From an uncultured Clostridia bacterium (GTDB lineage Bacteria; Bacillota; Clostridia; Christensenellales; UBA1242), in the NCBI GenBank assembly GCA_947649575.1, contig CANSRZ010000003.1, positions 99,996 to 163,995 on the forward strand: DNA of 64,000 nt. The letters are read 5' to 3'. Within the stretch, counting starts at the first letter, position 1, and every line of letters starts with the position of its first letter. A program made the translations under genes and the position numbers. Shown in pieces: positions 6,001-48,954 of this stretch. The notes under the pieces are model-generated. The model saw only the letters and a program-made list of their open reading frames with translations. It had not been told where the DNA came from and did no database searches.

Positions 6001-8444
6001 ATGAGATTGAAGATAACTTTGGCGGAATAACCACAATAATTCAACTTGTTGATGAGGAAACCTGCGAAGAAGTTATCAGCGAAAGCAACTCACCTATTTA
6101 TTCTACAACTGAAAGTGGAGATAACGGCGTAACTTATCTTTCAGCAAATGATTTGACTTTCCAATACAACAACTTGATATATAGCGCTGAGGTTGTAAAA
6201 GTTATTGAAAGCGGACGAGAAATTGTTGAAACTGTTAGAGCTGAACTTAAACCAGGGAGCAGAAACATTTCACAAATCAAGCTTAGAGCAAACTCATTAA
6301 ATTATGACAAAACCTATATCATTGAAATTCAAGATATGGATAATCCTGGCACAGTTATAAGAACAGTTAACCTTAGAATCTATAACAGATTGCCAATTTT
6401 GACAACATCATTAAGTGGCAATAACAGCAACAGATATATCCGATTCTTTGACAAAAATGGCAATATAATTGAAACTACTGACAATGTTCCATCAGTTACT
6501 GTCGAATTTAATGGAAGAGTTCTTACTTCAAGTGCAACTTCAATCACAACATTCTCAAACAATGTTACAACAAGATTTGATAATGGTCAAAACCTTGCTA
6601 CTCAAGCAGAATTGACTTATAATGACCAATACACTTACAGTATTTATATTTCAGAGGATGGCAAAAATTGGACAAATATCAATGAAGAATATGCAATTGG
6701 ACACGTTATTTCAGGCACAGGAACTTATTATATTCTTTGCGCTTATGACCATGAAAATTATTTCAAAGATGTTTATAAGCTTTACATGGTTAATATATTA
6801 AGTTCATCTTCAATTTCATATTACTTTAATGTAGATGGCATGCCTGCCACAGCAAGACGTAATTTTAACTACACTGTTAAAGACACAGGCGAAGTTATCA
6901 CAACTGTATATATGCTTAATGTGAATTATGAAGATAAAGACGCACGTGTATCTATTCAGGCAAATCCAGAACTTGACGCAAAAATTGACAACATACGTTT
7001 GGTTACTGATTCAAATTCTGGCAGAGCAAATGTTCGAGTTGAAATTTACAGATACCACAGCAATATCACAACCGACGCAACCTTTGCAGTTGTTTATATC
7101 GGCGAAAATTCAAACATTTTGAATAAACTGACTTATGAAAATGCTTTAGGCTCTAATGTAGACCTTTTGCAGATTGATAATCCAGCAAATCCAAGCAATA
7201 TTGTGGCTCTTGCAGATGACACAATGTTCAATCAGTTAAAGATATCTTGGAATAACTATTACGGCATTCAAGAGAACACAATCAATGTAAAAGTAGAAAA
7301 GAAATGGATTGATGAAAATCAAAATGAAACTTGGGTTAAAGTTAACACAACTGTTTATGGCGATGACCGCACAAGCTTTATTTATCTGACACGTGCAGGA
7401 GCTTATAGACTTAAATTTGAAGATAGTTGCGAAAAGCCAAATACTCATTTGTTTGGCGCAAGAAGCGATGTCATCAACATAACATTCTTAAGCAGCGTTC
7501 CTTTCACAGTGACTTATACAGACCCTGCACAAGAAAAAGAAGTGACATCTGAGCCAATCAACCGTGCAATCTATAACGGAAGCGTTCGCCTTTCACTCAC
7601 CGACCCTAACGAGTATTTTGCATCAGGTTATCCAATCATCCACGTGATGAAAGATGGCAAAGAATATACTGGCTTTACAAATCAAGGCATATACAACTAT
7701 ATTTTCAGCGAAAATGGCTATTACTCAGTTTATTTTGAGGCTAAAACAATTGACCAACAAGATATTAGAATAGAAAATTATGTATTCTCAATCATAAATG
7801 CAAACGAATCAAGATTTGCATTTGAATACAGCACATTCTCAAAATATTATGTTAAGTCGATTATTAAAGATGGCATAGATGTGACCAAAAAGTTTGTTGA
7901 CATCATTGATGACAACAAAGTAACTATTGGTGATGACCAATATTTAACAAATTTGCAGATTTCATTCTTTGATGAAAAAACTGGTGCAGGAAGATATGTT
8001 ATCACTATCGAAACTGGCGAACAAACTTATTCTACAGCAGCGACCTCATTCACCTTTGCGTTCAGAATCAATCTTGCAACTCCTCCAATAACGGTTGGAC
8101 TTGAAGAGGGTTCTTCAACCACAAAGACTATTTCAGTTTCATTCAATGCTAGACACCTGTATGAAACTGTTGGCGATTGCATTGTAAGAATTCCAGGTCA
8201 CAGCCCTATCATAATCAATGCCGAAAACCTTGACACAGAAACAATCACACGTGAAATTTCTGAAATTGGAACAAACTATGTTCAAGTGCTTTCAATGAGT
8301 GGCAACCTGTTGTACTCATATAAAGTAACTCGCAACAAACCGCTTAACCTTTGGTCAATCTTTGCGATTGTTATCAGCATTGTGGTTGTTGCTGTGATAA
8401 TCTTCATCACAGTTAAACTGCGTAAGAGATTGAAAGTAAAATAA
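3..8444 (+). CDS. Giant cell-surface protein with Ig-like modules and C-terminal membrane anchor (5' end outside window)
   Basis: The frame is open from the left edge, so at least 2813 residues are visible and the true start lies outside. The protein is rich in Asn, Thr, Ser and Tyr and built of many beta-sandwich-like modules. Several end in the pattern 'Gly-x-Tyr-x-(hydrophobic)-x-Asp-x-Ala-Gly-Asn' followed by 'Asp-Asn-Thr-Ser-Pro', typical of bacterial Ig-like/cadherin-like repeats. The last 34 residues hold one membrane segment (WSIFAIVISIVVVAVIIFI) and a basic tail, RKRLKVK. No LPxTG motif is present, so it is probably membrane-anchored with its bulk outside the cell. A likely role is adhesion or surface display; the ligand cannot be told. 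A terminator follows directly. Confidence 0.85.
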   Translation: MEKIYKNYAYFPDKNDKTKFYYFKFENSLSLYYNVTNKDIAENLDPEKNLLNGIPFSNYVSTYIKYQLNEDGTIAKDEDGNNIVEEESFRIDQYDLIPQKFKMAFALDTTKDKPSFGKDENSHVVTLDNEGCYTLFIPYSYYYSEDGGNTFTETQSAQIKYTFMLFNSSTYLNVANNLPNTTMSDFVQSSSLINNQSHSRYYFYNYASKDSSSSAVANGEAQLPTYTFNPSLYELSVVYTDINDVVQSATFKLDYNAQTGKNELHAYDASDNLTEIPVYYNYDESTSNLATLTFNDLGSYNISFNFIYKEADKTFNLPLTALDQRLYIYGYQSFYTTQEKDPITNETLSKELKKVNEATSTFRNSADITSVLSSKINMPEQHSANPIDADEIKAQIENNISKLQEIKPVSTNQTPIKFRANSNVTLQTSGVSAYYAVTFDNDGNPTIGSKTPYTGDNLKDAGTYLVITVYTYRDFLSTSGTQQSNFYHYQIFYLTITNTTPTVTVKAVTGEVDNDNNAIFKNLYAGDYTNKSVYIIDDSTNSEYDANVTITLSARNYMNTNSQNDYFFQNEDIKNFVDGFTYARGITYYPNLGVRFGINDPAKKDFDGKAGLYIDASETADNPYHNAEFTIYIRSASSQEASSRTFTIDTNPIGKVSAKSATYSTSSDYTLSLNPIDGNKTNQPLAFYWNEKNSGAPTYGYFKYYPLKDVEYYGNNQSTTSRILRTMIERNDIIPVNAVLDLNSQDAGWTRYTNSLYYSESSKIPATYVRSSAGLYILEVYDDAGNSTFEVYLLDNTSPFFVKRTVDSELNDSYSLITGTETITVSEDTTVSIHWADKKGIYIRQPANTSDIYKNYQNDGLGDLSNQIQTVVENFFNSNKQAINNISGISSNDTANIPNYNGDYLAINIIDEAWIKEIINKTTGQVITEYSPFNATSYTIDFFKTDEDGNQVANEGPYKFLIRDSSNTKLDPNHGKESFLNAPSAYATIVVSSDQSKLQFIINNDTDNPVTQSGYSLAQKFYLNADGELVKNNPEQNLATAGNKAYKYSYYNPIKTTLPLSISFVPKTKNSASVMESLWLEYYPYVQANQNVTMQDHDNGTFTAKTYYRTLSNTPTRSFPIFELSTENEGLLEDTVMTYNISFSGTDIADEGKYVITRRYSDKDSTGLDQYDYFERTLTLIVDRSNIISPLTQISNGDNKSFESIVGGDILIQVYSESDQSSISLALPDYNPTTGLNSGSLYTSQNMTEESLISTALTSNKLPLSVRIPKYKYTTYNQYDRNTNSYTSNINNKLSYFGDFAINEEQESSSSSVIVFRVYTELAYDQANNLDTERSILIGQYDTRLDAEDAVSKLQQNASIDVYELAAKICFKPASTLSDGRTWKWYRTNKSTTNNFLNFYETTGEWVAPTANAKLLESFSEVGQYVITIYQASNQNQESEGNAAFNMLYKVQFEITNPTPDFSVLNSNTNTGLNSVTEDGLSTYYTNTNLLRVQWEDPSDEFLAKIDKTSISIITVNDRTQNEYSVSLNEIQQIKNSNIFYFDIDLQKRFESNFWRNGNSLSISMRYEGYPAEPKYTVTKQIKIDYTAPVETLETLMKNLSSSASMFDRIYQERNMRVLYDYTEKQIDTTDVNVWNNTANLTDLMENVSYSYTPGSGNFRHYAYPVNRSFFNTVYSKLTDPQNRFTNTQELYFKSIDKSASEFLTNYTQTNNGSFSPANGYLSLKNVFASLDNDGYLVSDTYYEVVELDTAGNMVVYIVYYNNNNQNDTAISYTNSALQEKPDAEKIKKISNKEIADGFNIYSKTGFELQELNFNSDAWGIYKTRINRIDRTFMLSPWLFTDGMIYELIGNNFVQTRISEIFGNVRTSTEKFTISISDRMAGDLKNIYVSIMDTTLTTTKYSDENANGKFAILEIATPTYEEIVSMTPTTFPVKMTISNYDGNGWNSSMLLTNGSVPDGNPNTWSSFNQGNYLAFSYDLSRRQLIISIRIDNVYNRKFKYEIEDNFGGITTIIQLVDEETCEEVISESNSPIYSTTESGDNGVTYLSANDLTFQYNNLIYSAEVVKVIESGREIVETVRAELKPGSRNISQIKLRANSLNYDKTYIIEIQDMDNPGTVIRTVNLRIYNRLPILTTSLSGNNSNRYIRFFDKNGNIIETTDNVPSVTVEFNGRVLTSSATSITTFSNNVTTRFDNGQNLATQAELTYNDQYTYSIYISEDGKNWTNINEEYAIGHVISGTGTYYILCAYDHENYFKDVYKLYMVNILSSSSISYYFNVDGMPATARRNFNYTVKDTGEVITTVYMLNVNYEDKDARVSIQANPELDAKIDNIRLVTDSNSGRANVRVEIYRYHSNITTDATFAVVYIGENSNILNKLTYENALGSNVDLLQIDNPANPSNIVALADDTMFNQLKISWNNYYGIQENTINVKVEKKWIDENQNETWVKVNTTVYGDDRTSFIYLTRAGAYRLKFEDSCEKPNTHLFGARSDVINITFLSSVPFTVTYTDPAQEKEVTSEPINRAIYNGSVRLSLTDPNEYFASGYPIIHVMKDGKEYTGFTNQGIYNYIFSENGYYSVYFEAKTIDQQDIRIENYVFSIINANESRFAFEYSTFSKYYVKSIIKDGIDVTKKFVDIIDDNKVTIGDDQYLTNLQISFFDEKTGAGRYVITIETGEQTYSTAATSFTFAFRINLATPPITVGLEEGSSTTKTISVSFNARHLYETVGDCIVRIPGHSPIIINAENLDTETITREISEIGTNYVQVLSMSGNLLYSYKVTRNKPLNLWSIFAIVISIVVVAVIIFITVKLRKRLKVK

Positions 8445-14123: not shown

Positions 14124-17100
14124 TTAAGCCTTCAAAGTAATCTTGTTTGCCTTAAACCAATCAATAACCTTTGTTCCGCTTTCAGTTGACATTGACGCCA
14201 TAAAGAACAAATTTTTCTGTATTGGGCAGCCGTCATTAAGTTGAGGAACAATAGCAAAATCTTCAAAAGTTCCTGCCGAATAATATCCTGCGCCATTAGA
14301 AATTGCATAACAACTTTCAACAGTCATTGTATTGCCTTCGTTGGAAGGTTTTAATGAACTTATGCCGTTGCTTGTTGAGCCAACAAAACTTGAATTTTTG
14401 ATAACAAAACTTCCAACGTTATAGCCAACAAATAATGAACTTTTGTTGTTAATAATTGTTCCAAACCCAGCGCAATCAGATATTTCAGTTATAGCAGTCG
14501 AATATGCCCCTGCAGTTGCACCAACAAATATGGCGATATGACTATAATTGTTGCCTTCAAGTTTTGATTTTGTAATGCACTTTTTAATATACACATTATG
14601 TATATTGCTTGACTCAATGCTTGACCTTGTTTCGCCCACAATTCCGCCAACGCGAGCATATCTTGAGGCATAACTTTTTTGCCCCTCAGTTTTGATATTG
14701 CCATAGTTATAGCAATTTTGAATAGTTCCACCAGAAGCTAGCCCAACAATTCCGCCAACGTCTGCTGTAGCATAAATTGAGCCATTGTTTGTGCAAAAAT
14801 CAACACTTGCATCGTTTTCAATTACACCAGCAATGCCGCCAACGTTGTTGCCAAGATTGATTTCAGTATTGCTTGTGCAGTTTTCTACTGTAGAGCCAAC
14901 AGCTTTACCAACAATTCCGCCAATTTGCTCGCCCTGACTTTCGATAATCGAATCTGCAACTTTAATATTTTTTAGCACTGCGTTCTCGCCAGTATAGCCA
15001 AACAGACCTTGATTACATTTTGCAGTTTGATTTATCTTTAAGCCTGAGATGAAATATCCATTGCCATCAAAAGTTCCGTCAAATGCGTTTGCAAGGCCAA
15101 TTGGATACCATTTGTTGCCAGCAAGATAAATGTTTTTTGTTTGTTTAAAATATTTTCCTTCAAAAGTTTCGCCATTTTTAACTTTCAAAGCTACTCCTGC
15201 AAGTTTTGCGTTTGTGTCTATTATATATGGATTATCTTGACTGCCTTGGCCTTCCCAAACAGTGTTTGCTCTTGTGCCGCCAATCCAAGTTGAGCCTTCT
15301 GTATATAACGCAGGATATTTTGGCTGACCTTCAGAATAATAAATATCCCAAACGTCAGTAAAATTCCAAGGATAAGTTGAATTCCATTGGTGACTTGAAT
15401 CAGAGCCATAAGCAAAAAATTTGTAAGTTTTAATCAATGAAGTCAAATCGCTTATTTCAGACGAGCTTGTAATTTTCCCGCCAGCATTTGTAGTTGTTGC
15501 ACTACCGCTGATAAAATAACTGTTCTCAATCTTACTGCCAGAGTCAATATACCCCGCAATTTGTCCGCTTTCTCTTGTTCCACGATAGTTAACCACGCCA
15601 ATATTAAAGCAGTTGATAATGCTAGAAGCTGTCACATCACCCAAAATTCCGCCAACAAGGTCATATTCCGCGTAAACTCGCTCGGCTCTGTTATAACAAT
15701 TGGTCACTGTTACGTTTCCAGCACCTCCGCAAATTCCGCCAACAATACCTGAGCCACGCACTACGCTCTCGTTTAAGCAGTTTTCAAATGTGCTATTGTA
15801 TGCCGTGCCAGCAATTCCGCCAACATTGTTATCATAACCATAAATCACACTGCCATTTTTGCATTTTGAAAAAAGTGTATTGCTTGCATAACCAACAAGC
15901 CCACCAACATTTTTACCGTTACCAGTGGTCTTGCAAGTACTATAAGCCTGGCAATTTTCCATAACCGCCGTATGAATACGTCCAACAATAATTCCAACAT
16001 TGCCATATCCAACAATTTCTCCGATAGCAACATTAACATTTTTGATAGAAGCTTTATGAGCATCGTCCAAACCTCGAACATAGCCAAATATGCCAGCATT
16101 TGTCACATTTGACAATTCGTGCTTGCCAAGAATAATTGCCTTTTTGCCGCCGTCATAATGCCCAGCAAAAATTTTATCTCCGCCAATAGGATCCCAAAGC
16201 AAATCAGTACGTTGATATATGCTCAAATCTTTTGTTTGTTTAAAATAAGTGTCAACAAAATAATAATTTCCATTTGTAACAGGCGCTTCACCATTTTCCA
16301 TAGCCAAGCCAATGCCCGCAAGCTTTGCAGGCGTGTCAATCAAATATGGATTCTCCTTAGTCCCGTCACCGACCCAATTTGTATCCCCCTCATCAATCCA
16401 AGTTGGAGGAATTTGCCATTTAAAAATTGGATATCCATCATTATATTCAGCATCAATTGTCCAAACATTATCAAAATCCCAAGGATAAGAACTATCCCAG
16501 TTTGATGAATTTGTATACCAAACTTGATTTTTAGCATAACTAGTTGTATTTAAATCAGCAATCTTTGTTGTTGTGCCTATTCCAACTCCAATACCTTTTG
16601 ATAATGTACACTCACCACCATAATAACAATTGCTGACTGGGGAAGAAGAATAATTATCCCCCACGACTCCGCCAACACAATCACTTCCGCTTACACTTCC
16701 TGTGTTATAACAATTTCTGACTGTGGAAGAAGAATTATTCCTCCCCACGACTCCGCCAACATAAGCACTTCCGCTTACACTTCCTGTGTTATAACTATTG
16801 CTGACTTTGGAAGAAGAATCATTATACCCCACGACTCCGCCAACATAACTACCTGTTCCGCTTACACTTCCTGTGTTATAACAATTTCTGACTATGGAAT
16901 AAAAATTATACCCCACGACTCCGCCGACATATTGATATCCTTGAATATATGAATCTATCACACCTAGATTTGATATTGTGGCATTATTTGAAGATGATCT
17001 ACCTCTTACATACCCAAACAAGCCTTGATAAGAATATGTGCTTTTTGTTCCGCTTTTTGTAAACACGCCTGAAACTGTATATCCATCTCCATCATAGTTA

Positions 17101-17570
17101 CCTGAAAAATATCTTAGTGTTTGTGTCCCAGAGCGGTCATAGTATATCCCAATCGGTTGCCACCAATATGCTGATACATCTATGTCTGCTGTTTGTTTGA
17201 AATAACGGCCTGAATAATAGTAATATCTACTACTAGTAGCAGTATTGCTACCAGAAGTATTTGTCAAATATTCAGATTTTGTATTGTTGTAAATTGTATA
17301 GCTTAAACCTGCAAGTTCTTCTGCACTTGTGATAAGCCATGGGTCATCTGCTGTTCCACTGCCTGCCCAGTTGGTATCTACACGAGAAACATCCTCATCC
17401 CAATAACTGTCATTTATTGGAGAAGTTGCTCCTTGGGTTGATTGTTCCGTTTGCTCAGGTTTTGATTTTGGAGAAAAGTCTGTTAAGCCAAAAACAAGCC
17501 CTAGCGTTAACGCCACGACACAACAGCCTGCAATTATCCCTGATATTATCTTTGCTGATAAAGATTTCAT
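14124..17570 (-). CDS. GLUG-repeat surface protein
   Basis: 1148 residues. The N-terminus has a short basic run and one hydrophobic segment (IISGIIAGCCVVALTLGLVF, about residues 9-28) that is a signal sequence or anchor. The rest consists of three large modules, each opened by W-x-G-x-G-T/S-x-x-x-P-(W/Y)-(L/I)-I and a following 'ELAGL/KLAGI' helix (near residues 68, 397 and 765). After each come many GLUG motifs (VGGVVGYN, VGGIAG) and Cys-Tyr-Asn strands, which fold as a beta-solenoid. Such proteins are secreted adhesins or glycan-binding proteins. There is no LPxTG, so anchoring may be by the N-terminal helix. GGAGG supports the start. Its promoter holds a nine-G tract. Confidence 0.88.
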   Translation of the reverse strand: MKSLSAKIISGIIAGCCVVALTLGLVFGLTDFSPKSKPEQTEQSTQGATSPINDSYWDEDVSRVDTNWAGSGTADDPWLITSAEELAGLSYTIYNNTKSEYLTNTSGSNTATSSRYYYYSGRYFKQTADIDVSAYWWQPIGIYYDRSGTQTLRYFSGNYDGDGYTVSGVFTKSGTKSTYSYQGLFGYVRGRSSSNNATISNLGVIDSYIQGYQYVGGVVGYNFYSIVRNCYNTGSVSGTGSYVGGVVGYNDSSSKVSNSYNTGSVSGSAYVGGVVGRNNSSSTVRNCYNTGSVSGSDCVGGVVGDNYSSSPVSNCYYGGECTLSKGIGVGIGTTTKIADLNTTSYAKNQVWYTNSSNWDSSYPWDFDNVWTIDAEYNDGYPIFKWQIPPTWIDEGDTNWVGDGTKENPYLIDTPAKLAGIGLAMENGEAPVTNGNYYFVDTYFKQTKDLSIYQRTDLLWDPIGGDKIFAGHYDGGKKAIILGKHELSNVTNAGIFGYVRGLDDAHKASIKNVNVAIGEIVGYGNVGIIVGRIHTAVMENCQAYSTCKTTGNGKNVGGLVGYASNTLFSKCKNGSVIYGYDNNVGGIAGTAYNSTFENCLNESVVRGSGIVGGICGGAGNVTVTNCYNRAERVYAEYDLVGGILGDVTASSIINCFNIGVVNYRGTRESGQIAGYIDSGSKIENSYFISGSATTTNAGGKITSSSEISDLTSLIKTYKFFAYGSDSSHQWNSTYPWNFTDVWDIYYSEGQPKYPALYTEGSTWIGGTRANTVWEGQGSQDNPYIIDTNAKLAGVALKVKNGETFEGKYFKQTKNIYLAGNKWYPIGLANAFDGTFDGNGYFISGLKINQTAKCNQGLFGYTGENAVLKNIKVADSIIESQGEQIGGIVGKAVGSTVENCTSNTEINLGNNVGGIAGVIENDASVDFCTNNGSIYATADVGGIVGLASGGTIQNCYNYGNIKTEGQKSYASRYARVGGIVGETRSSIESSNIHNVYIKKCITKSKLEGNNYSHIAIFVGATAGAYSTAITEISDCAGFGTIINNKSSLFVGYNVGSFVIKNSSFVGSTSNGISSLKPSNEGNTMTVESCYAISNGAGYYSAGTFEDFAIVPQLNDGCPIQKNLFFMASMSTESGTKVIDWFKANKITLKA
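16620..16930 (-). repeat. 84-bp tandem repeats inside the GLUG gene
   Basis: The string CACGACTCCGCC recurs at 16662, 16746, 16830 and 16914, an exact 84-base period (28 residues per unit). The units are nearly identical at nucleotide level, including CTTCCGCTTACACTTCCTGT. The high identity implies recent duplication and possible copy-number change. Confidence 0.9.
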
Positions 17571-36836: not shown

Positions 36837-36864
36837 AAAAAACGCGAGATTTTCGCGTTTTTTT
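36837..36864. terminator. Bidirectional terminator
   Basis: AACGCGA, loop GATTT, TCGCGTT with A and T runs on either side, between convergent genes ending at 36713 and 36867. Confidence 0.9.
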
Positions 36865-36866
36865 GT

Positions 36867-39800
36867 TTATTTTTTATTGCCAGCATTTTGACGTCTTTTT
36901 TCCTTGCGTAATTGTTTTAGATATTCTTTTTCCTGAGCAATTTGTTGAACTCTGAGGTCAATCATATTTTTTGCCATTTCAAAAGCATTATCATCAACAA
37001 TCTTAAGTTCGGTTTCTTTGACTTTGATTTCAACATCACCATTGCCACTGCGTCTAAGAGCTTTCAAATTCTCATTTTCAAGTTTGAAATATGCAACTGT
37101 CATATTGCGCTTAATCATGAGTTTGATGTATGGCTTATTGCCCTCCCCAACTATCAAATACTTTTTAGACTCTTTGGACGTTGCGTTAGGTTTTTTATCA
37201 GCATACTCTTTAAGCTTTCTAAAATATTGCTTTTGTTTTGTTGGTAAGTTTTCATAAGCCTCATCAAGTTCAAGTTTTGGGCTGCTGTTGATGATGATTG
37301 CACCTTGTGGAAATTCACGATTTTCTTTTGGCTCATCCACAACAGGAGTTGCAACAGTTTGCGGCTCAACATCTTCTACAACCTCAGGTTGAACAACCGC
37401 AACTTGTTCTGGCTGAACACTTTCTGGCTTTGTTTGAGCAAAATCTGATAAATTTTCTTCTAAAATTTCTTGTTGAAATTCGCGTTGACGTTTTTCTCTG
37501 CGTCTATCTTCATAAAGTTCTTCTTGTCTTTCCTCTTCTCTTTTGCGCTCTTCTCTGCGTTCTTCTTCGCGACGATGCTCTTCGCGCAATCTTTCTTCAC
37601 GTAAAGCTTCTTGCCTACGTTCTTCACGTCTACGCTCCTCTTGCATATCTTCATAATGACGTTGTTCTCTAAGTCGCTCTTCTCTTAACTCTTCTTCACG
37701 GCGTTCTTCACGACGACGTTCATCACGAAGCGCTTCTTGCTTACGCTCTTCAATCATTTCTTCCAAACGCATAGCTTCTTTTCTGTATTCTTCTCGCAAA
37801 AGTTCTTCTTTCATTTTAAGTTCGTTCATCATGTGAGAACTCAAATGAGTGTAATACATTCCAGAGTCCATGAACCCTTGATGCAATTTTCTGTCACGTT
37901 CGCGCTGCAACTGTTCAATCATAAAACGAAGTTTGCTTGCCTCAGCACTTTCAACAATAACCTGCTGTGCTTGTGCTGGCACTGCGTTTTGAATTGGAGG
38001 TGGCACAAAATTTGAAGTTGAATTATTTGCAAAGCCATTGTTTGCAAAACCTTGATTATATCCTTGATTTGCAAAGTTTTGATTTGAGTTTGCTGAATTA
38101 AAAGTTGTTTGAGTTTGATTATTGTCTAAATTATCATCTTCAACAACAACCTCTTCTTTAGCCTCTTCGTTTTCTGGCTCTTGCTCTTTTTTATCCTCTT
38201 CCAAAGTCTCTTCGTTTGCATTTTGCTCTTCAGGTTGCTCTTCATCGTCATCTTTTTTTCTTCTCTTAACAATGATAATTATTATGATAAGAATAATCAA
38301 AAGCAACAACGCTCCAAGCCCGACTGCAAACCAAATCCAATTTTTCTTAACAAAATCCCAAACATCAGCAAAGAAATTTGACTTTTTCTCGAAAACAAAT
38401 TCATATTCAAGTTCAGTATTTTCATCAAATTCATAGTGGTCGGCATCAGCAATTTCAACAACCGCTTTATAGCTTTCTCCTTCAATCATTTCTTCAACAG
38501 AAACTTCTGTAAGTTCACCGCTTTCAGCGTCTTCTTTAAAATACTTGATTGTTACAACATCAGAATGCCCACTCTTATCAGGACTGAATACGCCATAACC
38601 TTTATCATTATTCCAACTTCCAGCAACTTTGGCTTTAACAATGCTAAATGTAAAACTATCACAATTTTCATCAATAACGGCAGTGTCAACTTCTTTGCGA
38701 ACAGTTATCACGGCAAGATATGATCCTATTTCTGTTGGAATTTCAGTTGAGCCTTCAGTTGCGCCGTCTTTGAAATATGTAATAATGATATCATCTTGAG
38801 TCAATGAAATAGGATTTTTTACAAAATCTATTTCATATTTTGGCGCTTGACCTGTATATTCATAACTTTCTTTAATTCCCTCACCGTCAAACTTAACTTG
38901 AAGTTGAATAACATATTTATTGCCTCCAACTTCAAACATGCAATTAGGCTCTGTTGGATTTAAAACATAGTTTTCTTGATAAACAGGTTTTAAACTTGCA
39001 ACAATTTTATATGTCTTTAAATTTGTAGCATAGCCGTCAATATCTTCAAGAGAAACTTGAATTTCACTTCCGTCATCAGTTATTTCATAGAAAGTATAAT
39101 CCACCATGTCATTCACACTTAAATCTTCAAAAGGTTTAAGAGACGGAATAATCAATATATTTTCGGCGTCTTCATTTCCAAAATTCCAAGAAGCGACCAA
39201 AACTGCTTTTTCAATAGCCCAAATGCATTCCCAAGCAAATGGATTGTCAACATTGTCAATATATGTTGAACTATCAGATGAAATTGGGTCATAATAATTT
39301 GGATTTGAATTTGAAAATTGAACAATAGTTTTATAATTTTCACCAACAGGAATCATATCTTTGCTGCCAATATAACTTGCTTTCAAGCCGTTTGGCATTG
39401 ACCCTGCAAGTTTAACATTTTGTTTTGTGTCTTTCTTAAAATATCTTTTGTTTGCCTCGCTATAATCCCAAAGCAGATTTGATAAATCATATTTAGCTTT
39501 TTCAATCATGTAAGTCAAAGTATAATGAGCAGTTTGTTCTTCAAAGCCAGGCAAAGATTTTAAATAAACTGTTACAGAATAAGTTCCAAACTTGTTCACG
39601 CTTATATCGCCAACAAAGCCATTTGTTCCTTTAGAAGTGTCAAGTTCCCAGCCGTTTGCAGTCAACAAAGTTTCATTAACACTTATTTCAAATGGGTTTT
39701 CTTGATAAACAAATTTTGCATTGCTTATGTCTTCAATCACTTCGCCATTGCAAAGCCATTGAGGTTCTGCCATAACAACGCTGTTGCCTCTAACAGTAAA

Positions 39801-42077
39801 AGACTGCTTTGCAATTCCGCTTGAAGAAGCAAGTTTATAATTGTTGTTTTGATAAGCTTCGCCAATCATTTCAACACCAATTTCATAACTTCCCGCTTCT
39901 ATAATTGGCATAACAATGATTCTTGTTTTAAAATCATCAGAAAATTCTTTTTCTTGATTAATTCTGTCTTTCTTCTCGGTTGGATTTTTTCTGTCTATAT
40001 AATATATATATAGTTCTGTCCTGTCATTCGGCAAACTGTCGCCTTTAATAGTTATTGTTGGTCTTTCACCAATCTTCCAACTCCATTCATCATAAGATTG
40101 AATGCCAAATTCCAAATTCAAATTACGCTTTAAAATTTCAAATTCAAGGACAAAACTTTCAGTTGTTCCAGTATTTTTCCATTGCTGTTCGTCCTCATCA
40201 AACAAAGCAACTCTTGCTTGATATTTTCCAGCATTTTTTGCTTTTAAAGTGTTGGTTGTTTGGTCATAATCCAAGCCGCTTGTCAAAGGCACAATTCTTA
40301 TCTCGCCATAACTTGCCCCAAAAATTGAAAATTCCAAAATTTCGCCGTTATAAGTTTTCTCAGTCTCATCAATATATGGCCGCGTTATTTGAGTCTTGCC
40401 TTTAACATAACTGGCTGTGTATGCTTTAGTTGTGTCAATAACATAATTGCATTGATTTTCTATTTTTGCAGTTCCAATATAAGAGCCAACTTTGTTTGGC
40501 AAATTTGGATGCACAAAATTATAGCCTTTACCGTCTGAACTTTTGTAATCAAACACGAAAACTGGCGCTCGTCCATTGTCAACCGTGTCACCAATATAAA
40601 TATCAGAAATATTTTTTGCACTTGCCTGCAAATATCCGTCCGAACCTGTTGTGATATTTAAAGCAAGTTTCTTTGGCTCAACAATGATTTTTGCGTTCAT
40701 TTCTCGTAAGCTTGCATCTTTTCCAGCAAAAGCAGTTTTTGAATCAGTCAAAGTCACATTAACAGTGTATTCACCAACATCAATAAGACCGCCAGCACTA
40801 GAGTCATCAAATTCCATAATATTAGAGTCAAACCAATCTGCCACAGCAGAAAGTGATTGCTTTTTGCCAGAATATTCAACAGTAACGTCTTCAACTTCAA
40901 CATTTGTACCAGAATCTCTTTCAGCAGCTGTCAAATTAAGGTGCATAGCTGGACGAACTACAGCATTTGTAAAATTAGACGCCAGACCTGATTGTTGTCC
41001 ATTTCTTGGCAAAAGCGTACAAACAACAGAATAATTGTTCACCGCATCAGCGCGAAGCCATATGTGAGCTGTGGATGAACTGTCAGCAACCTGATTGTTT
41101 GTCACTTTCCAAAGAGTATTTTCAGTAGGGATACCATTAGTTCTTCCAACTTCAGTCAAAGAAGGCAGCCAAATTTTTGAATCTTTCCAGCTGTTCCAAT
41201 AATTGCCAGTATAATTTTTATTTCCACCGCCAGAAATTCCGTTTGTGTGGTTTGGCGTGTCATAATATGCATTGCCCTCTTGCCAATCGGCAGCCGAGCA
41301 AACATCTGGCCAGCTTTCTGAAGCTTGATAGCCAATATTTACAGGAGCTAAAATATAATCTGTCAAACTGCCATTCACGTTTGGCATAGTAAATTTTGCC
41401 CATTCGTTGTCTTCAGAAGGATTAATTTGAGTCAAGTTTGTGCTATCAGTTGCACAATAGCCTCCATTGTTTAAAACAAATGTGTTCATATAGCTTGTGC
41501 CATAAGTGTTTGCAGAAAATTGAGTACCTTTTGTATCACTTGTCCAGTTGTTAAAAGGTGCAATCTTAACTTTGCTTTTTGTTATATTTGCAAGCCAAAT
41601 TGTTGCAACAACGTCACCGCTTTTTGATTTTGTCAACGATGTTACAGTCCAATCATAGCCGCCAAAAGTTAAAACAATATCTTTTCCGCCAGCTTTGGCA
41701 TTCAAAGTTTTTGCGTCAACAATTGGGCCGCCAGTCATAGCGCTTCCGTCTGACAATTTTAAGGTTGAGCTGGAACACCTTACACTTGCTGCAGACACCA
41801 GAGCGTCCACGTCAGCAAGTGTTGCATTGGTTTTTCCAGTCAACGCTTTATAAAGCGCATTTAAATTGTTTGGATTAAATACCTTTGGGCCGTCATCATA
41901 ATTGCTGTTTACAATATCTCCCACATTAACATAAGTGTTTGTGCTTGCAATGTTTGTGGCTTCACTTTGAGAAGAGGCTTTAAGACTTAATGAAATGCAT
42001 GAAAAACCCAAGCCAAGCGACAACACTCCGCACATAAAAGTTAAAATCAAAATTTTAAAATTTTTAAAGATTTTCAT
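36867..42077 (-). CDS. Giant single-pass surface protein 1 with Arg/Glu-rich cytoplasmic helix and conserved tail domain
   Basis: 1736 residues from the ATG at 42077 (GAGG upstream). Order: signal peptide (about 1-30); an N-terminal module with WLPS, EVGR, WLRADA and RPAMHLNL, resembling DUF6273/formylglycine-enzyme-like folds; MBG/Ig-like repeats with 'Y-x-G-x...D-x-G-x-Y'; a juxtamembrane domain; a membrane helix near 1245-1268 followed by KRRKK. Inside the cell come an acidic linker, an Asn/Gln-rich low-complexity stretch, about 110 residues of REERR-type repeats (about 1425-1532) and a basic C-terminal domain (about 1596-1736, from LPTKQKQYFRKL). The REERR array should form a long single alpha-helix. 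Eight bases after its paralogue. Confidence 0.88.
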   Translation of the reverse strand: MKIFKNFKILILTFMCGVLSLGLGFSCISLSLKASSQSEATNIASTNTYVNVGDIVNSNYDDGPKVFNPNNLNALYKALTGKTNATLADVDALVSAASVRCSSSTLKLSDGSAMTGGPIVDAKTLNAKAGGKDIVLTFGGYDWTVTSLTKSKSGDVVATIWLANITKSKVKIAPFNNWTSDTKGTQFSANTYGTSYMNTFVLNNGGYCATDSTNLTQINPSEDNEWAKFTMPNVNGSLTDYILAPVNIGYQASESWPDVCSAADWQEGNAYYDTPNHTNGISGGGNKNYTGNYWNSWKDSKIWLPSLTEVGRTNGIPTENTLWKVTNNQVADSSSTAHIWLRADAVNNYSVVCTLLPRNGQQSGLASNFTNAVVRPAMHLNLTAAERDSGTNVEVEDVTVEYSGKKQSLSAVADWFDSNIMEFDDSSAGGLIDVGEYTVNVTLTDSKTAFAGKDASLREMNAKIIVEPKKLALNITTGSDGYLQASAKNISDIYIGDTVDNGRAPVFVFDYKSSDGKGYNFVHPNLPNKVGSYIGTAKIENQCNYVIDTTKAYTASYVKGKTQITRPYIDETEKTYNGEILEFSIFGASYGEIRIVPLTSGLDYDQTTNTLKAKNAGKYQARVALFDEDEQQWKNTGTTESFVLEFEILKRNLNLEFGIQSYDEWSWKIGERPTITIKGDSLPNDRTELYIYYIDRKNPTEKKDRINQEKEFSDDFKTRIIVMPIIEAGSYEIGVEMIGEAYQNNNYKLASSSGIAKQSFTVRGNSVVMAEPQWLCNGEVIEDISNAKFVYQENPFEISVNETLLTANGWELDTSKGTNGFVGDISVNKFGTYSVTVYLKSLPGFEEQTAHYTLTYMIEKAKYDLSNLLWDYSEANKRYFKKDTKQNVKLAGSMPNGLKASYIGSKDMIPVGENYKTIVQFSNSNPNYYDPISSDSSTYIDNVDNPFAWECIWAIEKAVLVASWNFGNEDAENILIIPSLKPFEDLSVNDMVDYTFYEITDDGSEIQVSLEDIDGYATNLKTYKIVASLKPVYQENYVLNPTEPNCMFEVGGNKYVIQLQVKFDGEGIKESYEYTGQAPKYEIDFVKNPISLTQDDIIITYFKDGATEGSTEIPTEIGSYLAVITVRKEVDTAVIDENCDSFTFSIVKAKVAGSWNNDKGYGVFSPDKSGHSDVVTIKYFKEDAESGELTEVSVEEMIEGESYKAVVEIADADHYEFDENTELEYEFVFEKKSNFFADVWDFVKKNWIWFAVGLGALLLLIILIIIIIIVKRRKKDDDEEQPEEQNANEETLEEDKKEQEPENEEAKEEVVVEDDNLDNNQTQTTFNSANSNQNFANQGYNQGFANNGFANNSTSNFVPPPIQNAVPAQAQQVIVESAEASKLRFMIEQLQRERDRKLHQGFMDSGMYYTHLSSHMMNELKMKEELLREEYRKEAMRLEEMIEERKQEALRDERRREERREEELREERLREQRHYEDMQEERRREERRQEALREERLREEHRREEERREERKREEERQEELYEDRRREKRQREFQQEILEENLSDFAQTKPESVQPEQVAVVQPEVVEDVEPQTVATPVVDEPKENREFPQGAIIINSSPKLELDEAYENLPTKQKQYFRKLKEYADKKPNATSKESKKYLIVGEGNKPYIKLMIKRNMTVAYFKLENENLKALRRSGNGDVEIKVKETELKIVDDNAFEMAKNMIDLRVQQIAQEKEYLKQLRKEKRRQNAGNKK

Positions 42078-42085
42078 GACTAACC

Positions 42086-45000
42086 TCACTTATCTTCACT
42101 ATTCTTTTTGTTTTTTAAATTTCTTATTGTCTTTTCCAACATTTTTTGGTCGGCTTGCTTTCTTTCCTCTCTCAAGTCTTCTTGCTTTCTTTCCTCGCGC
42201 CTGCGCTCTGCACGACGTTCTTCTTCACGCATTTCATCGCGCCTGCGCTCCTCTCTTAAACGCTCTTCATATAAACGTTCTTCTCGAAGCTGCTCTTGTC
42301 TACGCTCTTCGCGCCTGCGTTCCTCGCGAAGTTCTTCTTGTCTGCGCTCTTCGCGGCGACGCTCTTCTCGAAGCATATCTTGTCTTTGTTCCTCACGCCT
42401 ACGCTCTTCTCTGCGTTCCATTCTCAAACGCTCTTCACGCAGTGCTTCCAAACGACGCTCTTCACGCCTAAACTCTTCCATTAATGTCATTTCATGTTTG
42501 CGCAGTTCGCCAACGCCATAATCATGAAGTTCACCTTGACGGAAGTCGAGATTTTGCATATCATCTCTGATTTTCATTTCTTGATTTTGATAAGCATCAA
42601 GCAAAAGCCCAAGCAACTTGTCAACATCGCTACTGCTTACAACATTAGCATCTTGCGTTGGCATCCAAGCGCCATATCTTGGCTGAGCCTGTTCACTTTG
42701 CATTGACGCATTCTGTGGATTTTGCATAGTTGACTGCTGTTGTGGCTGCGCTGAGAACTGCTGTTGAGCAGATTGAGAATTATTGCCATCAAATGCTTGT
42801 CCTTGCATTGGCTGACCATTCATAAAGATATATGTTCCGCCACCGCCAACTGCTGCGCCCATATTGCCCATTGCTGAGCCTGCGCCATTTCCTGCAAATC
42901 TGTTATTTAAATCATTTGCAGAAGCTGTTGATGAATTCAAGTTTGCACTTTCTTGAATTTTATCTGAAACTTTTTCTTCATTCAAGTCTTGTACCTCTTC
43001 TTTATTTTCTTCTTTGTTGTCTTGTTCTTCCTTATTTTCTTGTTCTTCCTTAGTTTCCTCTGTTTCCTCTGATTGCTCTTCAAGCTCTTCCTCTTTCTTC
43101 TTGCGTCTTTTAACAACAACAATAATTATAATAAGAAGAAGCAACAATAATAATGCTCCAAGACCAATTGCAAACCAGAGCCAATGTTTTTTAACAAATT
43201 CCCAAGCTTTTTGGAAGAAGTTTTTGTTTTTCTTATATTCAAATTCTTTTTCGTTTTCAATTTCAACTTCGTCAGTTCCAGAAACCTCATAGTTGTTTGC
43301 ATCTTTCAAAACGATTTCAGCTTTGTATTTTTCGCCCTCAACCATATTGTCAGGACTAACTTCAATTTTATTTCCGTTTTCGTCTAATTTATATTCCCCG
43401 TTTTCATCAACAGCAAAATATTTTGTATCAAACAAATCTTTCTGAGTTTCATCTTCAGGAACAAACACAGGCACATTGTTTTCTTCTATCCATTCGCCAA
43501 CAATTGTTGCCTTAAATATCTGCCATTCAACTTGCAAATCTTCTGTGCTTCCAACTGATTTCAAAATTTTTGTTGGATCAATTTCATTTTCTGGATCTTG
43601 CTCTGTTTCAGGAAGTACCTCTTCTTCTGGAGGTTCTGGCAAAGGCAAGTCATTCCAGTAAGTGTATTCTTTGTAAATCAATGAAATTGTGATTGTGTAA
43701 TAATTGGCATTAGTTCCTGTCAACTCGCCAGAAATTGTCATAAATCTTGCATCATAACCAACAAGGTCACGTTCTGCATTGAAAACAATTTCTTGACCCA
43801 TATAAACATAATCAGTTTTGTTTTCAATCTGAGAAACAAGAGGTCTATCAATGTCACGAGCAATAACTTCAAAAGCAATATCAGTCAAATCGTCAATAGT
43901 TTCGTCGTCCCAAAGCAAGCTGTCTTTGTCAAGCAATTTGATTGTCATGCTTCCTGTGCCCAATGCTTCAACAACATTGTTTTCAGCAATCATCCATTCA
44001 GCTTTAAAATCGTCTGGAAAATATTCAGCATTCAAGCCGTTAAACTTAAACTTCAAAATTGAACCGTCTTCGTTTGCAGTCATTGGCTTAGATACATGTC
44101 TTTTTGTAATCTCAAAAGCCAAGCTTACAGAATCTGTTGTTCCGTCAAGCCAAGTGGCATTTGCATTTTCTTTAAATTTCAAAGTCACAACATAATTGCC
44201 AACATTTTTTTGCGTTAAACTGTCGCAATCAATTGCAAATTCAAGATATTCTTGCAATCTATCCCAATCAACAATTTCAAAAGTTTGTTCTTGATTGTTC
44301 CAAACCAAGCTTGAAGCCAACAGCTCAGGTCTTTCAAGTTCAATATAGTCGCCTGCTGGATTGAGTCCAGTTTTAAAGATATGTTCAAATTCAGTGTCAT
44401 CAGCAAATTCAACATTATCGTTATTTGAAGATAAAACAACTTTATAGTTTGTGTTATATTTAAGTGGATTTGGAGCATCAATGCCATCCAAATCACTTAC
44501 AAAAGTTGAATAATAACCGCTTACATCCAAAGTGTTGTCATGCTCAGCCACAACAATATATTCAGGCAGTTCAAGTCCGCCTTGATCAGTCCAACTTTCA
44601 ACAACAAGCTTAATTTTATGAATAACCAAATTAAAGCGTTTATTTTTAATGTTATAAGAACTGTCAAAAGGAGAATTTTCTACGAAAGAAATTGCAACAA
44701 GATAATTTCCTGCATTTGTTGGAAGTTCGCCGTCTGCCATAGGAATAGAATTCCCACTTTCATCAACAGTATAATATTTAACAACAAAGTTTTCTCTGCC
44801 TAAATCTAAGTCTGGGCAAGTAACAATAACTTCTTGACTTTGACCATTATAAACAGTGCCGTTCTCATCAAAGTTGAGTGTAACTTCAAGCAAATTACGT
44901 CTGTCACCAACCTTGAAAGTCAAATATGCATAGTTTTTGCTTGTGTCATAAATATTTGTGATTTCATACAAATCTGTGACACTTATCAAAGTTGAAAGTT

Positions 45001-48000
45001 CAACTTTTGCATAAAGCCAAACTTCTTTTTGCAAAGGAACAGTGATTTTTGTTATGTCATCAATCTTATCTTCAAAGTTTGCGTCATTATAATAAGTCAC
45101 AACAAGTTGTGAAGAATATTCTCTTAATGCATTTGGCACTGGATATTCATACCAGTTTAAAGCCTCGTCCTCTGCACTAATAAAATTCCAGTCTTCTTCG
45201 CGGTCTGACACCTGAATAACAATTTTGTTTATGTGCCAAACGTGCATAACAATTGCACTACCGTCAGCTTGAACGTCAATCCAGTCCAAATGTGATTCGT
45301 TAACAAATTTATGATTGCCATCTGGGCTAAGTTTATATTTTGCAATATATTCTCCAACAGCAGTTGCATAGTTTGTGCCGCCAGGTGCGTCAGATTTCTT
45401 TATCCAACTTGGACAATTTGCAAGGTCCATAGTTTGATTGATTTTGTTATAACTAAAATCGTCAAGCCAAGTAAGAATTTTTAAATCAAAGTTTGTTGGA
45501 GTGATTGTCCAATCAATTTCAATAACAACAGTTTTGTCATTAACATATCTACAAACAATTGAACTATCAATTGCAGCAAAGCCAACATCAAATTTGGCAC
45601 TATCGCTGGCAGTTAAAGTTGCAGTTGTTTTATAAGACGGATTTTGTACTGTGTTTGCGTCTGTAAATTTATCATTTGCATAAACAACAGAAATTCCGTT
45701 TGGCAAAAGCATTTCGTTAAGTTTAAAATGATATTCATATTCATTATATTGAACTGTTTCGCCTGCTCCATTAGCTGTAATACCAGTGCTTACAGCAGGA
45801 TTTGAATAAAGCCATTCAATTTCAAGATTTTTTATCACGGCAGTTGTGATAAAAAATTCATATGCGTCGCCAGTTATTGTTGAGCCAATGCTTATAAGCT
45901 CATAATTTTTGTTTATAGTTTGTCTATTGTCAAGTTCAACAAGGATTTCATAATATTGATTTGGTCTATAACTTGAAATATTAACAGATACAACAAGTTT
46001 TTCTTCAGAATAAGCATAATTTGTGTCATTCTTTTCAATTTCTACAGCAGAATTTTGTTCACCAGCATAAACAGTGATTATAGGTCTTTTTGCAGCCAAA
46101 GTGAAGTCAGTGCCTTTAAATATAATATCAATATTTTGCACGTCACCTGCTTGCCAAGAGTTTTGTTCGTCATCAACAATTTGATATTCAATCTTGCATT
46201 TCAAAATTTCAAGCGTGATTGTTCTGATTGAAGAAAGATTTTGCTCATGATTGTCCCATTGCTCATTTGCAGGGTCTTTCACAGTTATATTAACAGTGTA
46301 AACGCCAACGTCAGTTGCCCTAAACTCTTTTGTGTCAGCGTTGTATTGAAGCCCGCCTGTCATTGTGCCAATATTTATTCTTGTTGGCTCACCTCCATCA
46401 ACAGTAAAAAGCTTAAACACTTGCTCTTGTCCAGTGTAACGGATTTGAGTTGTCCAGCCATAAATCGTTCTTGGCAAAATTGTTGCCCCATTATTGCCCG
46501 CCACAACATCATCGTTTGAAAATCTTGGCATATAAACAAGACCTTTGCTTTTTTCAAACGTAATCTTTGCAGTATCCGCCAAAACATAGTTGCTTGTGCC
46601 AGAATTTGTTATATACGCTTGCACAAAATATTTTCCTGCATGAGTTGGCACAGTGCTTGTCCAGTTTGTTCCGTCACTGCTGTATTGCAGAGCCAAAACA
46701 GGTGCTTTGTCTGTATCTTCGTCACGCTCATAAATATTTTCTGACAAAGCCAAAGCGCTTGTGCTTAACAGTTCACCGTTTTCGTCAACCTCAAATCTCT
46801 GAACATTCACCTGCTTCTTGGTTATGGTCAAATTTATTTCCCAACTTGTTGTGTTTGGATTTCCCGCAAAAACAACATTTGGATGCTTTATACTGTTCAA
46901 AGTTATTTTATAGTTCCCTGCATCAGTATAATTTTTGCCGTCCTCAAATTCTGCAGTCAATAATCCATTATCAAACCAATCATGCTTAGTCAATTCGCTG
47001 TCCTTGTGTTCTTGCCCGTCATACTCCAAATTGATATCATTTGGCGTAATCGTCTTTGCATGAATAGTTGTCACCACTTCGGTATCCTTAGAATCCCCGT
47101 CCGACCAACGATAATTATCATTTGGTAAACTCAAAGTCGCCCGATAAGTGCCAGCATCAATAATAGCGTCGTCTTGCTCATCTGTCAAACTAAGCGTCAT
47201 CAAGTTTGAATCCCACCACGCCCTCGTCTTAAAGCCATGCTTCTGCCCGTCATACACCACGTCTTGCACATTTGGTTTTTGTATAATTTTCTTTGTGATG
47301 GAAATCGAAACACTTGTTGAAGTTAAACTTGTGCTTAGCCCAGAAAAATAATAGTTTGTGTTTGTCAGTGTAACCGTTGCCGTGTATAGCCGGACATCGG
47401 TATAGTTATAATCACTCTCGGTCGGCGTGATTGTCATGATACTTGAATTATACCAACTTTCAGTTTCAAACTTATGCTCCTTGCCGTCATAAGTATAACT
47501 TTTGTTGACAGGTGCAGTAACCGCCGCTTTGCCAATTGTCAAAGTTACATTAACGGTTGATGCTTGATTTGTACCAAAACTATAACCACTTTTTGCAGTA
47601 ACAGTTGCAACATGATTGCCAACAGTTGTGTAGTTATATCTTGTTTTGTCATATGTAATCGTCATTTGATTTGCGTTATACCAATTTGCACTTGTAAATT
47701 TTGAAGTCAAGTCACTGCCAGTATAAGTTGCAGAAACATCTGATGGAGTTGTGATTTGTCTAGTACTTGCTGCCTCAGCGGCTGTTAAGTTCAAGAAAAT
47801 GCAAGGTCGAATAGCATATTTACTTGTTGCAATAAACTCGCTTGTCGTATCAGCACCTGTCGATGAAAACGTTCTGACATTGGAAAATAAGTTTGATGCT
47901 GAACCATACATATTTGCGCTTGTTCTTGACCAATATCTTGCACCAGTTGAAAATTGCGTTGATGACAACCCCCATCTTCCATTCAATGATGCGTCAGGTC

Positions 48001-48523
48001 TTCCCATTTCCTGTAAACTAGGAAGCCAAACATAATCATTTTTCCAATTTTGATAAAATGTACCCGTAGTATAGCCATTATTTGTAATAATAGAATTATA
48101 TGTAAAATTTGATGGCACTTCACAAGTAGTATTAAAGAACTGATTTTGAGTAGGCCAATCGTTAAGAACTACTGTAGGAACTGTATCATTTTTTTGATAA
48201 GTGTAATATGGCGTTACTAAATAGTCTCTAACACTAGTTGAAAGTTGGCTAGTACTCATTGTATATTTTGCCCAAATATTAGAAGATGACTGTGTTGCAG
48301 TTCCAGAAAGTGCAGTATCAGTTTTTGAAGTTGCATACCTGCCACCATTATTTAGTACAATACTTCTCATCGTGCTTGTACCATACATATTTCCGTTAAT
48401 AGATGTTGAGTTTGAAGCAGTGTTGGCATATGAATTCCAAGCATATGTTGTCGATGTTGCATCTTTTGCTAACAAAGCAAGACATACATTTCCACGAGAG
48501 TCTTTGAAAAGTTCAACTGCCAA
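42086..48523 (-). CDS. Giant single-pass surface protein 2, main part (downstream of a frameshift)
   Basis: About 2145 residues in this frame; joined to the segment at 48469-48954 it would make about 2289. After the N-terminal WLPS / RPCIFLNL module come at least seven MBG-like repeats ('Y-D-G-(K/Q)-(E/K)-H', 'W-x-(N/D)-S-x-(M/L)-T', 'D-(A/V)-G-x-Y'), then further Ig-like modules and a juxtamembrane domain shared with protein 1 (FFQKAWEFVKKHWLWF). The membrane helix is followed by KRRKKKEEE. The cytoplasmic side has a Gly/Gln/Asn/Met-rich stretch and about 120 residues of REERR repeats running almost to the C-terminus. Unlike protein 1 it lacks the extra tail domain. Its only in-frame start here is a weak TTG, so it depends on the upstream segment. 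Confidence 0.85.
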   Translation of the reverse strand: MAVELFKDSRGNVCLALLAKDATSTTYAWNSYANTASNSTSINGNMYGTSTMRSIVLNNGGRYATSKTDTALSGTATQSSSNIWAKYTMSTSQLSTSVRDYLVTPYYTYQKNDTVPTVVLNDWPTQNQFFNTTCEVPSNFTYNSIITNNGYTTGTFYQNWKNDYVWLPSLQEMGRPDASLNGRWGLSSTQFSTGARYWSRTSANMYGSASNLFSNVRTFSSTGADTTSEFIATSKYAIRPCIFLNLTAAEAASTRQITTPSDVSATYTGSDLTSKFTSANWYNANQMTITYDKTRYNYTTVGNHVATVTAKSGYSFGTNQASTVNVTLTIGKAAVTAPVNKSYTYDGKEHKFETESWYNSSIMTITPTESDYNYTDVRLYTATVTLTNTNYYFSGLSTSLTSTSVSISITKKIIQKPNVQDVVYDGQKHGFKTRAWWDSNLMTLSLTDEQDDAIIDAGTYRATLSLPNDNYRWSDGDSKDTEVVTTIHAKTITPNDINLEYDGQEHKDSELTKHDWFDNGLLTAEFEDGKNYTDAGNYKITLNSIKHPNVVFAGNPNTTSWEINLTITKKQVNVQRFEVDENGELLSTSALALSENIYERDEDTDKAPVLALQYSSDGTNWTSTVPTHAGKYFVQAYITNSGTSNYVLADTAKITFEKSKGLVYMPRFSNDDVVAGNNGATILPRTIYGWTTQIRYTGQEQVFKLFTVDGGEPTRINIGTMTGGLQYNADTKEFRATDVGVYTVNITVKDPANEQWDNHEQNLSSIRTITLEILKCKIEYQIVDDEQNSWQAGDVQNIDIIFKGTDFTLAAKRPIITVYAGEQNSAVEIEKNDTNYAYSEEKLVVSVNISSYRPNQYYEILVELDNRQTINKNYELISIGSTITGDAYEFFITTAVIKNLEIEWLYSNPAVSTGITANGAGETVQYNEYEYHFKLNEMLLPNGISVVYANDKFTDANTVQNPSYKTTATLTASDSAKFDVGFAAIDSSIVCRYVNDKTVVIEIDWTITPTNFDLKILTWLDDFSYNKINQTMDLANCPSWIKKSDAPGGTNYATAVGEYIAKYKLSPDGNHKFVNESHLDWIDVQADGSAIVMHVWHINKIVIQVSDREEDWNFISAEDEALNWYEYPVPNALREYSSQLVVTYYNDANFEDKIDDITKITVPLQKEVWLYAKVELSTLISVTDLYEITNIYDTSKNYAYLTFKVGDRRNLLEVTLNFDENGTVYNGQSQEVIVTCPDLDLGRENFVVKYYTVDESGNSIPMADGELPTNAGNYLVAISFVENSPFDSSYNIKNKRFNLVIHKIKLVVESWTDQGGLELPEYIVVAEHDNTLDVSGYYSTFVSDLDGIDAPNPLKYNTNYKVVLSSNNDNVEFADDTEFEHIFKTGLNPAGDYIELERPELLASSLVWNNQEQTFEIVDWDRLQEYLEFAIDCDSLTQKNVGNYVVTLKFKENANATWLDGTTDSVSLAFEITKRHVSKPMTANEDGSILKFKFNGLNAEYFPDDFKAEWMIAENNVVEALGTGSMTIKLLDKDSLLWDDETIDDLTDIAFEVIARDIDRPLVSQIENKTDYVYMGQEIVFNAERDLVGYDARFMTISGELTGTNANYYTITISLIYKEYTYWNDLPLPEPPEEEVLPETEQDPENEIDPTKILKSVGSTEDLQVEWQIFKATIVGEWIEENNVPVFVPEDETQKDLFDTKYFAVDENGEYKLDENGNKIEVSPDNMVEGEKYKAEIVLKDANNYEVSGTDEVEIENEKEFEYKKNKNFFQKAWEFVKKHWLWFAIGLGALLLLLLLIIIIVVVKRRKKKEEELEEQSEETEETKEEQENKEEQDNKEENKEEVQDLNEEKVSDKIQESANLNSSTASANDLNNRFAGNGAGSAMGNMGAAVGGGGTYIFMNGQPMQGQAFDGNNSQSAQQQFSAQPQQQSTMQNPQNASMQSEQAQPRYGAWMPTQDANVVSSSDVDKLLGLLLDAYQNQEMKIRDDMQNLDFRQGELHDYGVGELRKHEMTLMEEFRREERRLEALREERLRMERREERRREEQRQDMLREERRREERRQEELREERRREERRQEQLREERLYEERLREERRRDEMREEERRAERRREERKQEDLREERKQADQKMLEKTIRNLKNKKNSEDK

Positions 48524-48954
48524 GCTTGTCCAGCAAAAGTAAGTTGAATATCATTGCCATATGTAGTGCCATTTAATGATTTATTATTCGCTCTAAAAGT
48601 TGCCGAATTAACAATATTTGAACGCCAATTTGCTGAAGTTCCAGTTGGAGCAAGAGCAGAAACATTTGCAAATGTTGCAGTTGATCTTCCAGTAATTTGT
48701 TTGTAAAGTTCGCCTAAATTATATCCGTTAAATTTCTTTGATACGCTTGTATAGTTTGTAACAAGCAAATCGCCTATATTTTTATAGCCTGAAGAACTTG
48801 GAACTGCTCCCACAATTTCATCAGTTTCAATGGCTTCGGTTTGCGCTATCCCTCCCCCACAATTTATGCTAACAAAAGAAATGCCCATGCAGAGCATAAA
48901 AAATCCGCATACGACAGACAATATAATTTTCTTGATGTTTTTTAGTTTTTTCAT
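48469..48954 (-). CDS. Surface protein 2, N-terminal part, cut off by a frameshift
   Basis: The ATG at 48954 has GAGGTG upstream and starts a signal peptide (MKKLKNIKKIILSVVCGFFM). It continues as in protein 1: KKFNGYNLGELYKQITGRST, then IQLTFAGQAW. At GCTTGGCAG (48525-48517) one G too few shifts the frame; adding a G gives AGQAW-AVELFKDSRGN and joins the long frame. The end of this fragment (LNFSKTLVEMYVLLC) is therefore out of frame. Whether the gene is broken, phase-varied or mis-assembled cannot be told here. Confidence 0.8.
   Translation of the reverse strand: MKKLKNIKKIILSVVCGFFMLCMGISFVSINCGGGIAQTEAIETDEIVGAVPSSSGYKNIGDLLVTNYTSVSKKFNGYNLGELYKQITGRSTATFANVSALAPTGTSANWRSNIVNSATFRANNKSLNGTTYGNDIQLTFAGQAWQLNFSKTLVEMYVLLC

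Follow-up and report, generated by a model that had tools for sequence, protein, structure and literature searches.

Within a window of 64,000 nucleotides (the whole stretch of DNA analysed, from contig CANSRZ010000003.1 of an uncultured Clostridia bacterium), two adjacent genes on the minus strand, here named A and B, were found to encode giant proteins of a common plan: a signal-like segment, a large ectodomain, a juxtamembrane domain, a transmembrane (TM) helix, an acidic linker, a stretch rich in Asn, Gln and Gly, and an Arg/Glu tail of REERR-type repeats. Only A continues beyond the Arg/Glu region, with a second linker and a globular C-terminal domain (CTD) of 141 residues. An earlier note on this DNA had recognized the Arg/Glu region and overlooked the CTD (36870-37292), whose predicted fold resembles the double-wing group and which recurs at the end of many other membrane proteins. 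The host genome (G000) comprises 1.09 Mb in 9 contigs and is 95% complete.

Gene A (36867-42077) is an intact open frame, as judged from its translation and start context. Its likelier start is the ATG at 42077, which has GTGAGG just 5' of it, overlapping the stop codon of B; counted from the GTG at 42089, the product has 1740 amino acids. A terminator-like hairpin (36837-36863, minus strand) lies directly 3' of A. The two genes adjoin head to tail and presumably form one transcript. Gene B as a whole spans 42086-48954, and it is not one open frame, which modifies the picture of twin genes drawn previously. The body of B (42086-48523; 2145 amino acids from a TTG, without CTD) and the 5' piece that carries the signal-like segment (48469-48954) lie in different frames, and no base was changed in our analysis. 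The overlap of the two frames (48469-48523) contains no long homopolymer. B may therefore be disrupted in this assembly or carry a sequencing error, be it by a real break, a phase change or an assembly error.

The signal-like segment was judged by hydropathy in A and by eye in the 5' piece of B. In A it is followed by an N-terminal extracellular domain (40920-41930) with alignable homologues in B and three other genomes, a repeat region (38643-40919) and the juxtamembrane domain (38370-38642; 43214-43519 in B), which alignment and profile search showed to be common to B and relatives. Over positions 2-138 of the query, the juxtamembrane-TM stretches of A and B share 50% identity; the two proteins can also be aligned in the N-terminal domain (30%) and along much of the repeats (24%). 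A structural model of the N-terminal domain of A, built from 6 alignment rows, reached a pLDDT of 50.3, too poor for a structure search. The signal-like segments and large ectodomains agree with the secretion proposed before; the repeats are weakly Ig/MBG-like. A Pfam search at E 0.1 gave no MBG match in A or B, and MBG_3 was found, below its cut-off, in two of five relatives scanned (P0005 and P0007). In a tblastn search, A matched no phage record.

As had been noted, each protein has one strong TM helix, at residues 1253-1274 in A (38268-38333), followed by KRRKK, and at residues 1783-1804 in B (43112-43177), followed by KRRKKK. Beyond it lie 466 residues in A and 341 in B. The GG_III-CTERM model, whose name implies a TM helix at the extreme C-terminus, matched both proteins marginally and within the TM helix only (23.2 bits for A and 22.8 for B vs. 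a cut-off of 22), and the position of the helix does not agree with that expectation. No sortase (PF04203) was detected in the host genome at E 0.1, with a control search that detects it in 3 of 14 known genomes; TM anchoring is therefore a plausible mode of attachment. Sortase-anchored Ig/MBG adhesins of Firmicutes likewise have a signal segment and a long repeat ectodomain, but A and B differ from them in having no sortase match in the genome and in the long sequence beyond the membrane. Taken together, A and B are best read as membrane-anchored giant surface proteins, probably adhesins.

Because a signal-like N-terminus is combined with a TM helix directly followed by KRRKK, the tails are most likely cytoplasmic, as far as sequence can indicate. 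The net charge of the 15 residues after the TM helix is +4 to +7 in four relatives, vs. -2 in A and 0 in B, since acidic residues come right after KRRKK in the latter two. The charge rule thus applies clearly to the relatives, but to A and B only locally.

The tails of A and B have the layout given in the earlier note, with an Asn/Gln/Gly-rich linker after the TM helix (37965-38123 in A; 42638-42949 in B) and a REERR region whose length, 110 residues in A (1436-1545; 37455-37784) and 114 in B (2014-2127; 42143-42484), falls within the range given there (110-120). These regions are nearly pure Arg/Glu (R:K 33:4 and 41:3), contain no Pro or Gly, and are probably helical. The best charge period is 4.70 residues in both, which was reached by none of 100 shuffles of either sequence. 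Opposite charges are over-represented at i+2, i+3 and i+7, and like charges at i+4 and i+5.

This spacing bears on the earlier suggestion that the tails are stable, monomeric single alpha-helices (SAHs), forming a rigid rod from surface to cytoplasm. Like myosin-6 and the designed EK3 SAHs, the tails are long, highly charged and presumably helical, and their enrichment of opposite pairs at i+3 would suit such a rod. However, they have a charge period of 4.7 and almost no Lys, and opposite pairs at i+4 are depleted (A, 21 vs. 30.5 expected, z -2.4; B, 19 vs. 32.4, z -3.4). The excess at both i+3 and i+4 that characterizes SAHs and charged SAHs (SAH/CSAH) was found in neither tail: a combined score, with weights of 1.0 and 0.6 of our own choice, gave z -0.7 for both, the same as shuffles, vs. 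z 11 for designed SAH repeats. PMC5347031 reports that designed SAH repeats rich in Arg (Arg-only) aggregated, which speaks against free rods at the R:K ratios seen here, and also that the natural myosin-6 SAH stayed monomeric, without aggregating, in an all-Arg variant. According to PMC5812594, the Waggawagga program does not count like-charge pairs at i+3/i+4 as destabilizing, and it could rate the tails more favourably. PMC5378345 states that SAHs are present in many prokaryotic proteins; a bacterial example would therefore not in itself be a novelty. Considering the charge spacing, the rod was dropped as the leading idea.

A canonical coiled coil was also rejected, as the hydrophobic period of the tails is not significant (38 and 60 of 100 shuffles reach it). 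When the tails were modelled as parallel heptad helices, the e-g' score averaged over all registers was negative at zero shift (A-A -0.39, B-B -0.49, A-B -0.36). A shift of 7 made it positive (A-A +0.32, B-B +0.44, A-B +0.29), with signs alternating up to 70 residues. In this simple model, parallel tail helices would thus attract each other when shifted by an odd multiple of 7 and repel when the multiple is even, and it is more likely that the Arg/Glu helices associate than that they stand as free rods. Such a 14/3 charge wave would be a cleanly testable design of helix pairing, unlike both classical coiled coils and single alpha-helices. The tail of B includes a 42-nt tandem repeat (42275-42411). 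Among identical amino acids 14 residues apart, the codon is shared at only 49% of positions in A and 47% in B, indicating that the charge pattern persists at the protein level; recent DNA slippage was rejected as the sole source of the tails for this reason. In the B tail, Arg codons move from AGA to CGN when compared with the remainder of the gene (Fisher p 0.0003; p 0.10 for the A tail), perhaps avoiding long purine runs. No sequence relative of the A REERR region was found in PDB at E 1.

To characterize the CTD of A, we combined structure prediction with searches of related genomes. Its model is confident (pLDDT 92.8) and resembles the YjbR/MotA/DUF5655 'double wing' group at moderate scores, and the domain is basic in 34 of 35 copies. 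It may thus share the fold of MmcQ/YjbR (PF04237), the MotA C-terminal domain and DUF5655, and it shares their basic character; it differs from them in having no sequence-profile match and in its place at the C-terminus of membrane or surface proteins, behind a TM helix. None of the 6 alignment members matched the MmcQ/YjbR or DUF5655 profiles at E up to 10, in searches where the HMMER filters drop most matches above about 0.1. Cas1 was considered and rejected: its matches were weak and below the cut-offs (E 0.0049 in Pfam, 0.0017 in NCBIfam), and no Cas1 appeared among the best 50 rows of the structure search. Three PDB sequence rows at E 0.41-0.49 were taken as noise. As to possible nucleic-acid binding, the one feature seen is the basic charge. 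Among the open-access PubMed Central titles listed, none concerns this tail or CTD, and 'DUF5655' occurs in 0 open-access papers there.

Among 396 genomes belonging to the order, 47 have the CTD. We examined 36 copies, comprising 30 of at least 128 places and 6 from other searches. In all 36 the domain is C-terminal, with the stop codon no more than 165 residues from its start, and a TM helix, called by a hydropathy threshold, was predicted in frame upstream in 34; the other two run off the fetched stretch. The occurrence of one CTD on many membrane proteins points to a shared cytoplasmic partner or nucleic acid. Two proteins (L057 and L058) have, by eye, a GH3-like glycosidase sequence followed by a TM helix and the CTD. 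In four others (L060, L065, L068 and L056), repeats that look InlB-like share one side of the only predicted TM helix with the CTD. InlB-like repeats are normally extracellular; either those of these four proteins are cytoplasmic or their topology differs. Genomes of genus g113 (G328, G377, G433, G467, G475, G484 and G519) have at least 10 CTD matches each, many in open frames of 1600-2100 residues, and five loci of this genus (L044-L047 and L052) have two or three predicted TM helices ahead of the CTD.

The two-gene order, a B-like giant without CTD followed by an A-like protein with CTD, is also present in G523, of the same genus (1777 and 459 amino acids), and in G102 (1997 and 579 residues of open frame). 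The A-like proteins of both genomes have almost no ectodomain and keep the TM helix, helix and CTD, implying that what is conserved in A is its inner half. G113 has two giant proteins, each of which unites ectodomain and CTD in a single chain. A query of the juxtamembrane-TM stretch matched 11 of 147 genomes of the family at E 1e-4. Of the 14 places listed, five are near full-length (two in the host genome, one in G102 and two in G113); the remaining nine are partial alignments, seven of which extend little beyond the TM end. The juxtamembrane profile matched 5 of 101 genomes of the genus, strongly only the host genome and G523. The CTD profile matched 9 of 112 genus genomes at E 1e-10, where the A type was limited to our copy and one in G523, and the remaining eight places correspond to open frames of 312-410 amino acids. 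Judging from these sequences, the tail with CTD would be older than this species, with a patchy distribution, and the large ectodomain of A may be either a later gain or a retained fusion. Two other genus members have open frames of 11,500 and 12,732 amino acids (L011 in G131 and L014 in G142), which end in a TM helix with a short KKK tail.

While the TM-plus-tail architecture, which the earlier note had proposed to look for, is thus conserved in other genomes, its REERR charge pattern was not found there. A protein search with the A tail in 147 family genomes (E 1e-6) matched only A and missed B. The DNA pattern REERxxEER occurred at 9 places in 6 of 297 genomes, three of them in B and none in A; of the other six, one encodes REER within the linker region of an FtsZ-like protein, and the rest belong to a short conserved protein with serine at one or more arginine positions. 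The uniqueness of REERR accordingly rests on two insensitive searches, each of which missed the other tail of the window. Six homologous tail segments, cut by us from G523, G102 and G113, showed no comparable charge wave: the best period was reached by 5, 99, 78, 21, 30 and 95 of 100 shuffles, the lowest count belonging to the B-like tail of G523 (period 4.88). Lys outnumbers Arg in each of them, and a significant hydrophobic period close to 3.6 is present in two. The rod model passed over what is conserved in the tail of A, the CTD, and relied on a feature absent from these six segments.

A reasonable hypothesis, to which we assign a probability of roughly 0.45, is that the tails are cytoplasmic handles by which the adhesins are clustered and docked on a common partner. 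A and B would then be held and organized from inside. Their Arg/Glu helices would bind side by side in a shifted register, as a charge zipper and not a free rod, and the CTD of A would dock on a cytoplasmic partner common to CTD proteins; zipper and docking together would gather the adhesins into clusters and keep the pair at a single cellular site. Of the mechanical element proposed before, a membrane-spanning adhesin-like pair with tails most likely in the cytoplasm would remain, and the rigid rod would not. HubP and FimV are polar landmark proteins, HubP with LysM, acidic repeats and another C-terminal domain. They offer a similar arrangement, with an extracytoplasmic part, one TM helix, a cytoplasmic tail that is long, charged and of low complexity, and a C-terminal domain, also cytoplasmic, that serves as a docking hub; in contrast to HubP, A and B have a giant repeat ectodomain and an Arg/Glu helix, and the CTD is double-wing-like. 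Most Gram-positive adhesins are thought to be passively attached to the wall. If the handles are real, a shared domain at the cytoplasmic end would mean that the surface is organized, or read out, from inside, and the CTD would be a concrete bait for a partner search.

Several points weigh against this hypothesis. Both the docking partner and the interaction between tails are hypothetical. The pairing score is a direct consequence of the charge wave, was calculated only where the shift is a multiple of 7, with no shuffled control, and assumes a heptad geometry where neither tail has a significant hydrophobic period. The REERR pattern, as it was not found elsewhere in the family samples, is not needed for any shared function. 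The CTD also occurs on small membrane proteins that lack a large ectodomain, as well as on the GH3-like enzymes, so its role is not adhesion-specific, and the single TM helix of L056 is doubtful. The possible break of B should also be considered.

We nevertheless place the cytoplasmic handles ahead of three alternatives. One, rather improbable in our view, is that the CTD is a double-wing DNA/RNA-binding domain and A a membrane-tethered nucleic-acid binder, through which surface engagement would act directly on transcription or the nucleoid or ribosomes would be tethered. In this respect A is similar to the one-component membrane regulators CadC/ToxR, which also combine an extracellular part, a single TM helix, a flexible linker and a cytoplasmic domain, possibly nucleic-acid-binding in A; it differs in its inverse domain order, giant ectodomain and lack of a winged-helix profile match. 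We give equally little weight to the view that the Arg/Glu stretch is a lineage-specific repeat expansion with little function, on adhesins that are ordinarily TM-anchored or else cut at the TM helix and shed. The tandem repeat and frame break in B, the lack of further REERR matches in the family samples and the marginal GG_III-CTERM match would all fit such an expansion; however, two sequence-diverged tails have an identical charge period, their codons agree at only about half of the identical positions, and the TM helix is far from the C-terminus, unlike in sorting signals. The free monomeric rod, against which the i+4 depletion of the tails speaks, is the least credible.

A broader scenario, which is speculative, is that throughout the order a single undescribed domain of double-wing-like fold serves as a cytoplasmic plug for many unrelated proteins of the membrane and surface (adhesins, glycosidases and small anchors), coupling the surface to nucleic acid or to one internal scaffold. 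At this locus, two adhesins would have added a shift-coded Arg/Glu zipper between membrane and plug.

Other large frames are also present in the window. One, of 2785 amino acids (87-8444), has no Pfam match at E 0.001, and a protein of 1148 amino acids with GLUG motifs (14124-17570) is likely another surface protein.
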